Assembly (NCBI RefSeq): GCF_947495735.1
Contig: NZ_CANMAA010000001.1
Span: 558,001-622,000, forward strand
DNA length: 64,000 bases
DNA from: an uncultured Pseudokineococcus sp.
Lineage (GTDB): Bacteria > Actinomycetota > Actinomycetes > Actinomycetales > Quadrisphaeraceae
Direction of reading: 5' to 3'
This document shows positions 16,338 to 28,337 of the stretch, piece after piece. Every line of letters starts with the position of its first letter. Positions within the stretch are counted from its first letter, which is position 1. The position numbers and the translations under genes were made by a program. Under the pieces are notes generated by a model, which had not been told where the DNA came from, made no database searches, and saw nothing but the letters and a program-made list of their open reading frames with translations.

Positions 16338-16370
16338 GCCGCGACCGTAGTCCGCCGCGCGCGACGCCAG

Positions 16371-16416
16371 CACGACGCAGGGCCCGCCCCCGGGTGGGGG
16401 CGGGCCCTGCGTCGTG
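16371..16416 (-). terminator. perfect 21-bp stem / 4-nt loop hairpin, probable terminator of the symporter gene
   Basis: CACGACGCAGGGCCCGCCCCC-GGGT-GGGGGCGGGCCCTGCGTCGTG. Confidence 0.85.
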
Positions 16417-16442
16417 CAGCGGGTGGAGCAGGTGCGGAGCGG

Positions 16443-26040: not shown

Positions 26041-27251
26041 GCGAGCCCGCGCGCGCGCCCGGCGCGCCGGACCCCGACGGGGTGGACGGCGCGCCCGCTG
26101 CCCTGCCGGAGCGGGCCGAGAGGCTCGCCAGGCCCTCCGAGGACGTCGTCGGCCCTCCTGACGACGCCGCCGGCGCGCCGCAGCGGGACGCGCTCGGCAG
26201 CGCCGCGCTGGCGGCCGAGCGGGCCCTCCTGGGCGGTGAGCCCACCCTGTCCCGGCGCGAGGTGGCCACCGCGGCGGACGTGCGCCTGCGCGACGCCCGG
26301 GCCCTGTGGCGGGCGCTGGGCCTGCCGAACGTCGAGTCCTCCGTGCCGGCCTTCACCCAGCTCGACGTCGACGCCCTCGCGCAGGTGACGCACCTGGTGG
26401 AGGAGGTCCGGCTCGGCGAGGAGGTGGCGCTCGAGCTCGCCCGCGCCATCGGCCGGACCATGGACCGGCTCGCGTCCTGGCAGGTGCAGCTGCTGCTGGA
26501 GGAGACGGGCCGCGCCGAGGACGTGCCGCCGCTCCTGGTCGCGCTGGTGGAGGACCTGCGCCCGCTGCTCGACTACACCTGGCGGCGGCACCTCGCCTCG
26601 GCGCTGGACCAGCTCGCCGCCGACCGCCTCGCGCTCGACACCGCCACCACCGTGCAGCGGACGGTCGGCTTCGCCGACATCGTCGCCTTCACCTCGGTCG
26701 CCCGGCGGGTCTCCGAGGCCGAGCTGGCCCGGCTCGTGCAGCGCTTCGAGACCACGGCGGCGGACGTCGTCGCCCGCCACGGCGGCCGCGTCATCACGAT
26801 GATCGGCGACGAGGTGCTCTTCGCCTGCGCCCCCGGGCGGCCGGCGGCCGGCATCGCCCTCGACCTGGCCGAGGCCATGAGCGACGACGAGCTCCTGCCG
26901 CCCGTGCGGGTCGGCGTCGCGACCGGCAAGGTCGTCGCCCGCCTCGGCGACGTCTTCGGCACGCCCGTCAACCGCGCGTCGCGGCTGACGGCCATCGCGC
27001 GGCCGGGCACGGTGCTCCTCGACGGCGCCACCGCGCACCCGCTCGTCGGGACGCCGGGGCTCGACCTGCAGCCCCTGCGCGAGCGCGAGCTGCGCGGCCT
27101 CGGGCCGGTGCGTCCCTGGCTGCTGCGGCGCGCGGGTCCTGACGGCGAGGCCGGCCCCCTCGAGACCGAGGACCTCGAGGGCGTCGCGGCGCTGAGCGAC
27201 GACGCAGACCTCGTGCGCCTGGACGGTCTGGGCGACCGGTCGCGCCCCTGA
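26037..27251 (+). CDS. class III adenylate/guanylate cyclase with N-terminal regulatory region
   Basis: [55 protein letters not shown]...[28 protein letters not shown]. Confidence 0.93.
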
Positions 27252-27370: not shown

Positions 27371-27585
27371 GGCTGCCGCGACGGGTGGTGACGGCACCCA
27401 CCAGCGCGGGGGCGGGCGTCCTCCGGGGGCACGTGAGGCGAGCGTCTCGAGCGGGGCGCAGGCCCCGCTCGAGCGCGTAGCCAGTGCCCCCGGAGGGCGC
27501 CCGGCTCCGCGCACTCGTCCCCGCGGGACGACACCCGCCCCGCTGGCGGGTGACGTCACCACTCGTCGCGGGGCGATGGGCAGCC
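27371..27585. repeat. ~215-nt long inverted repeat with internal hairpins between convergent genes
   Basis: Left arm 27371-27432 pairs with 27484-27585 (18/19 at the inner end; GCTGG(T/C)GGGTG(C/A)CGTCACCAC(C/T)CGTCGCGG at the outer end); central perfect 12-bp hairpin CTCGAGCGGGGC-GCAG-GCCCCGCTCGAG at 27446-27473. Confidence 0.9.
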
Positions 27586-27611: not shown

Positions 27612-28337
27612 TCAGGCCCTCGCCGCGAGGCGCCGCCGCAGGTCCAGCAGCGCCCACCACGTGACGCGCACGACCGCCTCGCCGACGATGGCGGGCCCCA
27701 TCTTGGAGCGGCCGGCCGCGCGCTCGACGAACGTGATGGGCACCTCGACCACGCGCGCGCCGGCGGTGACGGCGCGCAGCGTGGTCTCCACCTGGAAGCA
27801 GTAGCCCGTCGAGCGCATCCGGGCGACGCCGATGCGCGCGAGCAGCGGGGCGCGGAAGGCGCGGAAGCCCGCCGTCGCGTCGCGGACGCCGAGGCGCAGC
27901 GCCGCGCCGATGTAGGCGTTGCCGCCCCGGGAGAGCAGGCGCCGGTGCAGGGGCCACCCGCGCGTGCCGCCGCCCTCGACGTAGCGCGAGCCGATGGCGA
28001 GGTCGGCGCCGCCCGGGCCGACGGCGCGGAGCAGGGCCGGCAGGCGGTCGGCGGGGTGGGAGAGGTCCGCGTCCATCTCCACGACGACGTCGTAGCGCCG
28101 CTCGCGGGCCCACGCGAAGCCGGCGCGGTAGGCGGCGCCGAGGCCGTCCTTGGTCGCCCGTCGCAGCAGGTGGACGCGCGGCTCGGGCCGGGCCGCGACG
28201 AGGTCGCCGGTGCCGTCCGGGCTGCCGTCGTCGACGACGAGGACGTCGACGTCCTCGTCGGCGGCCAGCACCCCGTCCAGGAGCGCGCCGATGGTGGCGG
28301 CCTCGTCGTAGACGGGGACGACGACGAGCGCCCTCAC
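27612..28337 (-). CDS. polyprenol monophosphomannose synthase / DPM1-like GT2
   Basis: VVVPVYDEAATIGALLDGVLAADEDVDVLVVDDGSPDGTGDLV...VEMDADLSHPADRLPALL...GSRYVEGGGTRGWPLHRRLLSRGGN. Confidence 0.93.
   Translation of the reverse strand: MRALVVVPVYDEAATIGALLDGVLAADEDVDVLVVDDGSPDGTGDLVAARPEPRVHLLRRATKDGLGAAYRAGFAWARERRYDVVVEMDADLSHPADRLPALLRAVGPGGADLAIGSRYVEGGGTRGWPLHRRLLSRGGNAYIGAALRLGVRDATAGFRAFRAPLLARIGVARMRSTGYCFQVETTLRAVTAGARVVEVPITFVERAAGRSKMGPAIVGEAVVRVTWWALLDLRRRLAARA

Follow-up and report, generated by a model that had tools for sequence, protein, structure and literature searches.

How dispersed palindromic repeats, which are common, persist without an obvious transposase is an open question. 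That a folded single strand can combine a variable stem sequence with informative unpaired bases is known from integron attC sites. Among the dispersed palindromes of bacteria, REP sequences measure 20-40 bp (PMC3733652) and have been described in inverted doublets (PMC3116915); unpaired positions matter in one REP group, and co-evolution of repeat and recogniser has been reported for REPs (PMC8266576). Bacterial MITEs, represented in our comparison by ERIC, Correia/NEMIS, RUP and CIR (PMC2229807), form a second point of reference.

Here we describe an inverted repeat in a 64,000-nucleotide stretch of DNA from an uncultured Pseudokineococcus sp., the whole of which we call the window. It is one copy of a previously unlisted dispersed hairpin family with about 60 copies in four Pseudokineococcus genomes; a literature search on palindromic repeats in Kineosporiaceae returned nothing relevant. 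Like REP, BIME and REPIN sequences, these elements are dispersed, extragenic, palindromic and multicopy, and they occur in species-specific variants. They differ in being 109-nt hairpins with more than 40 pairs rather than palindromes of 20-40 bp, in numbering tens rather than hundreds of copies, and in lacking the GTAG/CGTC head at the foot of the hairpin, where the flanks of 60 copies instead read CACGAGCG and CGSACCCGACC. Moreover, the genus has no Y1/RAYT gene, and many copies are syntenic between species. By head, size and Y1 transposase, the element is thus not a REP proper.

With MITEs it has in common a length of 100-200 bp, a non-coding, intergenic character, a transcript that would form a long stem-loop and the lack of an encoded transposase. 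However, it has no TA ends and is not A+T-rich, no target duplication was seen, a search for a related IS by way of PF01797 identified none, and its arms differ from copy to copy while the centre is conserved. The initial annotation had called it MITE-like, which suits its dispersed, multicopy nature. As no target-site duplications or link to a transposase came to light, and many copies are syntenic, the element resembles a REP/BIME-like repeat more than it does a typical MITE. As in attC sites, its folded strand has variable stems and informative unpaired bases; it lacks, however, the GTTRRRY/RYYYAAC core sites and a cassette array. Finally, its covarying helices and conserved internal loops recall the structured RNAs of Rfam, but it matches none of the 4227 families and its orientation relative to genes is mixed.

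Anatomy of the repeat

Arm comparison and folding place the inverted repeat at 27371-27585, as initially annotated, and the flanking genes are indeed convergent. Its best-paired arms (27404-27432 and 27484-27512, 29 nt each) are 90% complementary, whereas broader arms of 68 nt (27376-27443 and 27504-27571) are 76% complementary. In a scan of the 64-kb window for 29-nt arms, 27404-27512 ranked highest with 26 of 29 pairs, the maximum in five mononucleotide shuffles of the window being 24; the runner-up, another long inverted repeat at 16363-16424, has 24 of 29 pairs. As RNA, positions 27350-27610 fold at -206 kcal/mol, compared with -156 +/- 5 for shuffles (z = -9.6), and DNA folding of 27371-27585 yields z = -10.5 (plus strand) and z = -10.9 (minus strand). 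The features of the region are the following:

26046-27251, plus strand: upstream convergent gene with an adenylate/guanylate cyclase catalytic domain (PF00211, E = 1.2e-11); start putative
27387-27408, plus strand: conserved 5' flank GGTGACG...CCAGCGCG (family consensus GGTGACGCCCACGAGCGCG), from comparison of copy flanks
27404-27512, plus strand: complete type A hairpin of 109 nt (outer arms, conserved core, apical stem-loop), from arm complementarity and alignment with 11 other own-genome copies
27404-27428, plus strand: outer left arm, variable from copy to copy and covarying with the right arm
27429-27487, plus strand: conserved core GCACGTGAGGCGAGC...GCGTAGCCAGTGC, 59 nt here and 58-59 nt in every type A copy
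27433-27436, plus strand: internal loop GTGA, with A at 27483 across from it; the other three species have GTCA
27437-27439, plus strand: 3-bp helix GSC:GSC with its partner at 27480-27482, from covariation
27440-27441, plus strand: internal loop GA, facing GNA at 27477-27479
27446-27473, plus strand: apical stem, 12 bp and perfect, with a GCAG loop
27488-27512, plus strand: outer right arm, from covariation and arm complementarity
27509-27520, plus strand: 3' flank GCGCACTCGTCC, diverged from the family consensus CGSACCCGACC, from comparison of copy flanks
27516-27530, plus strand: small hairpin CGTCCCCGCGGGACG, already noted in the initial annotation
27526-27564, minus strand: second copy, inverted and partial, similar to the element's 5' half (on the reverse strand GTGGTGACGTCACCCGCCAGCGGGGCGGGTGTC), from by-eye comparison, inverted repeat I1 and repeat D2
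27612-28337, minus strand: downstream convergent gene for a family 2 glycosyltransferase (PF00535, E = 8e-31); start approximate

Two details proposed earlier, the perfect 12-bp central stem with its GCAG loop (27446-27457/27462-27473) and the CGTCCC-CGC-GGGACG hairpin in the right arm (27516-27530), are present as described. The repeat had been described as about 215 nt long, which calls for a correction: the inverted repeat is composite, a 109-nt hairpin joined to a partial second copy. Likewise, the right arm does contain extra DNA, described as an insertion of about 30 nt, but this DNA is the inverted partial copy at about 27526-27564. Judged by what the copies have in common, the true homologous unit is the 109-nt hairpin at 27404-27512 plus its conserved flanks, and the pairing beyond it (27376-27403 with 27554-27571) derives from the inverted partial copy of the 5' half.

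Among the copies in its own genome, the core follows the pattern CACGTGAGSCGAGC-N(30-31)-GCGNAGSCAGTG, with a spacing fixed at 56-57 nt. Within the family, two types can be distinguished by their apex, which is a stem-loop in type A, while type B has the form GCACGTCAGGCCGGCGC...GCGCCGAGNCAGTGC with an apical loop of about 30 nt. Both have common flanks, 5' CACGAGCG and 3' CGSACCCGACC, a consensus drawn from 29 copies of type A and 31 of type B. A covariance model (R1) matches 27416-27500 with 95.4 bits, the best score in the genome, although this copy belonged to the training set.

Copy number and range

In a BLAST search of its own genome, the element matched some dozen additional sites with 72-90% identity, and the exact core pattern has 12 matches there, compared with none for a reversed-pattern control. 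The initial annotation had named a single-copy, non-conserved sequence as its refutation; instead, the repeat is dispersed, with 12 intact copies in its own genome. A looser core pattern, which brought type B to light, matches 14, 16, 10 and 17 times in G000, G001, G002 and G003, the four genomes of the genus, and not at all in nine other Kineosporiaceae genomes. With one mismatch allowed, the catalogue for the four genomes comprises 65 copies, 29 of type A, 31 of type B and 5 others.

The covariance model likewise detects the element in all three further genomes of the genus and in none of the nine other family genomes. Across 297 genomes of the order, the type A model has matches in four, all Pseudokineococcus, in a search with strict filters, in which few candidates were scored and weak relatives may escape. 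Furthermore, in a scan of one genome per species for about 85,000 species, the genus that carries the exact type A pattern is Pseudokineococcus, with matches in P. marinus and in an uncultured relative. The sole match outside the genus, in a Pseudomonas MAG, has no stem and was dismissed as a chance match, as was a stemless pattern match in IMG/VR. In these searches, type A is confined to a single genus. The exact GTGA pattern of the window's genome has no match in the relatives or in species-wide genome contigs because the relatives carry GTCA. No match to the element was obtained in phages, plasmids or viral contigs, and a search of the window and seven copy-bearing loci against the 4227 Rfam families yielded only tRNAs.

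Covarying stems and the favoured strand

We examined covariation at 35 proposed pairs, using 26 copies of type A drawn from the four genomes, and also in the own-genome copies alone. Standard pairs occupy 94.5% of the cells in proposed pairs, and two-sided changes occur in 179 cells, compared with 60.6 +/- 6.0 in shuffled and at most 64 in slid controls, and affect 23 of the 35 pairs; these counts are not independent events, as orthologous copies are related, which inflates them, and the structure was drawn from the same sequences. The middle pair of the GSC:GSC helix swaps between G-C and C-G (17:9) without a single broken pair, and the outer arms of type B covary as well, with two-sided changes in 13 of 27 pairs. 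While the stems vary, the unpaired internal loops GTSA/A and GA/GNA are conserved, and they persist even though correction of the palindrome would tend to erase them.

The wobble pairs are distributed unevenly in type A. In its outer arms, counting wobbles flanked by Watson-Crick pairs, G.U exceeds A.C by 21:1 (8:1 in the own genome), and in its apical stems by 18:5. Since an A.C mismatch on the plus strand is a G.U pair on the minus strand, neither a cruciform nor the opposite strand would produce such an asymmetry, and so large an excess points to one strand as the folded form. For type A, the form that is maintained thus appears to be the plus strand, either RNA or single-stranded DNA, whereas type B (16:12) shows no clear asymmetry.

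A species-wide loop letter

The first internal loop reads GTGA in all 12 intact type A copies of the window's species, whereas all 16 intact type A copies of the relatives have C at the same position. This difference holds at seven syntenic sites, and a decayed own-genome copy (C1:484643) keeps GTCA. Many sites are syntenic across species, with flanks that are 80-98% identical, but the elements at such sites are often as unlike as elements from different sites. At the gyrB-gyrA, rpsD and M13-peptidase sites, however, the apical stems show common descent, so that replacement of whole elements does not explain the loop change there. The change would have arisen at each site, as under co-evolution with a recogniser, or by very short gene conversion. 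A loop letter altered in step across one species suggests that a cell factor may recognise the folded strand.

A shared change of its own is seen in type B of G002, where GAGCC has become GAGGC in 7 of 9 copies. The two exceptions form an inverted pair (G002:C2:64943 and 65264; L134) that reads GTAAG and keeps GAGCC, while the remaining type B copies of this genome have GTCAG and GAGGC. We also considered parS, which has CACGTG in common with the element, as its identity, and dropped it, as the ancestral core is CACGTC.

Chromosomal setting and turnover

Among the 56 copies that could be classified with a GC3-based gene caller, 43 have tandem neighbours and 13 convergent ones, and not one is flanked by divergent genes; of the remainder, seven fall inside a called frame, probably through caller errors, and two are unclassifiable. 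A second gene caller left 2 of 45 copies without a facing gene end. The copies follow housekeeping genes, and different species often have one in the same position; the genes next to the examined copies are ordinary chromosomal genes. Sites in the own genome, with gene names assigned from translations by inspection, include dnaA-dnaN, gyrB-gyrA, tig-clpP, the regions upstream of ispG and downstream of rpsD, M13 peptidase-murA and sdhB. The dnaA-dnaN interval is the usual location of the actinobacterial origin. It holds copies in G000 (C5:81950; L130), G001 (C31:4172; L161) and G003, where there are two in tandem (C10:42602 and 42796; L153). The copies beside dnaA, gyrB, tig-clpP and rpsD bear on the interpretation of these regions in Kineosporiaceae.

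Relative to the genes, 23 copies have the same and 20 the opposite orientation. Where type A lies within 110 nt of a gene end, its plus strand is antisense to that gene in 11 of 12 cases, and at five sites (tig-clpP, gyrB-gyrA, rpsD, the S9 peptidase gene and M13-murA) both neighbours are antisense to the element. The element's 3' end does not face the nearer gene significantly more often (18 versus 11 site groups), and by eye we noticed no conserved promoter-like sequence upstream of the copies.

The set of occupied sites, the copy type found at them and the orientation of the copies all differ between species. The site in the window is unoccupied in the three relatives, and two others (c6 and c1d, the alignment of the latter not read in detail) are unoccupied or much shorter there; at unoccupied orthologous sites the spacers are unalignable, so that neither a target-site duplication nor a precise empty site is readable. 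At gyrB-gyrA, G003 has a deletion scar where the second own-genome copy lies, and G001 a shorter product of deletion, which marks this difference as a loss rather than a gain. At tig-clpP, the element in G003 is oriented opposite to those in G001 and the own genome, and at the OYE gene the own-genome copy is opposite to those in the other three genomes. Most copies are single; close inverted pairs are without exception in (-,+) order, and direct pairs and tandem duplicates also occur. The flips may reflect the loss of alternate members of inverted pairs.

Interpretation

With slightly more confidence than doubt, we consider the family a genus-specific, dispersed extragenic hairpin repeat that is REP/BIME-like but differs in anatomy, that is non-autonomous and whose folded strand is recognised. 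A copy consists of the 5' flank (GGTGACG..CACGAGCG), a variable, always complementary outer arm, a conserved core with fixed unpaired loops, an apex (stem-loop in type A, loop of about 30 nt in type B), the complementary arm and the 3' flank ..CGSACCCGACC. The recognised form would be the type A plus strand in a single-stranded DNA (or RNA) fold, and the loops would be read by a trans-acting protein, which may once have mobilised the element as a non-autonomous unit or may still copy and re-orient it. Mobility is in this respect what we infer; neither PF01797 (Y1/RAYT), which is absent from all 13 family genomes with controls positive in 5 of 14, nor the examined neighbour genes revealed a mobilising protein. 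The complementarity of the arms would be upheld by selection jointly with template-switch repair of the palindrome. As the family combines synteny across four species with strong covariation, a bias towards one strand and a species-wide loop letter, the question of a putative reader of the hairpin becomes directly testable.

It is conceivable, though we are inclined to doubt it, that the elements constitute a new class of dispersed hairpins whose folded strand is read by a non-Y1 factor and whose recognised loop code shifted genome-wide. If this is true, the type A shift in one species and the separate type B shift in another would be a natural record of co-evolution between element and recogniser.

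Compared with the REP/BIME-like repeat that we favour, it seems unlikely that the hairpin functions as a structured RNA, transcribed from the plus strand as a 3' UTR, antisense or small RNA and bound by a protein at its GUSA/A and GA/GNA loops. The strong covariation and conserved loops would fit, the wobble asymmetry in type A is as selection on RNA predicts, and GA/GNA may resemble non-canonical RNA loop motifs. Yet there is no Rfam match, no promoter-like sequence was noticed by eye upstream, the orientation relative to genes is mixed, and near gene ends the plus strand is mostly antisense, at five loci to both neighbours. For the structured ncRNA of the initial annotation, covariation strongly supports the structure, and an RNA role is possible. 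Distinctly unlikely is an immobile architectural site, a hairpin or cruciform that helps to organise the chromosome by binding a nucleoid, topoisomerase or replication protein. The fact that copies persist at syntenic sites among housekeeping genes, dnaA-dnaN and gyrB-gyrA included, the preference for one strand and the species-wide letter change, which fits co-evolution with a binding protein, speak for such a site, whereas the turnover of sites, the local pairs and tandem duplicates and the species-dependent copy type speak against it, and a cruciform would give no wobble asymmetry.

We regard it as improbable that the element is a bidirectional terminator, an mRNA-stabilising hairpin or an RNase III site 3' of genes, even though the hairpin is very stable on both strands and at least one gene end always adjoined it in the first classification. 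Termination requires neither a fixed spacing of 57 nt nor conserved loops nor a species-wide loop letter; the stop codons of tig and sdhB adjoin a separate hairpin of their own; and in the window, no T-tract follows the GC-rich hairpin, while the short hairpins beside the stops of the two genes do not exceed shuffles in strength (z = -1.5 and -0.4). We hold a pure terminator role to be unlikely, and the strong bidirectional terminator initially proposed finds no support as the main role. Least credible of all is that the hairpins are a by-product of replication template switching at palindromes, recognised by no factor. According to published work, hairpin stems can be both generated and mended by template switching (PMC8794818), and such a process could account for the rapid, compensated divergence of the arms, but it leaves the shared flanks and the species-wide change from GTCA to GTGA unexplained. 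We rejected it as the sole cause since the unpaired loops are conserved, and the same core at about 60 unlinked sites largely refutes it.

Observations on individual copies

The apical loops of type B often contain CCCGACC followed by a CA(C/G)-type sequence, like the element's own 3' and 5' flank motifs, and look as though two element ends were fused there (alignment A4). Upstream of several copies (L121, L128 and L130), the 5' flank motif (GGTGACGCCCACGAG or GGTGACCCGCACCC) is present in short tandem repeats, which suggests slippage beside the hairpin. Lastly, one contig (G000:C9; L132) ends in long C and G runs immediately beyond one of the copies, where the hairpin has probably caused an artefact of assembly.
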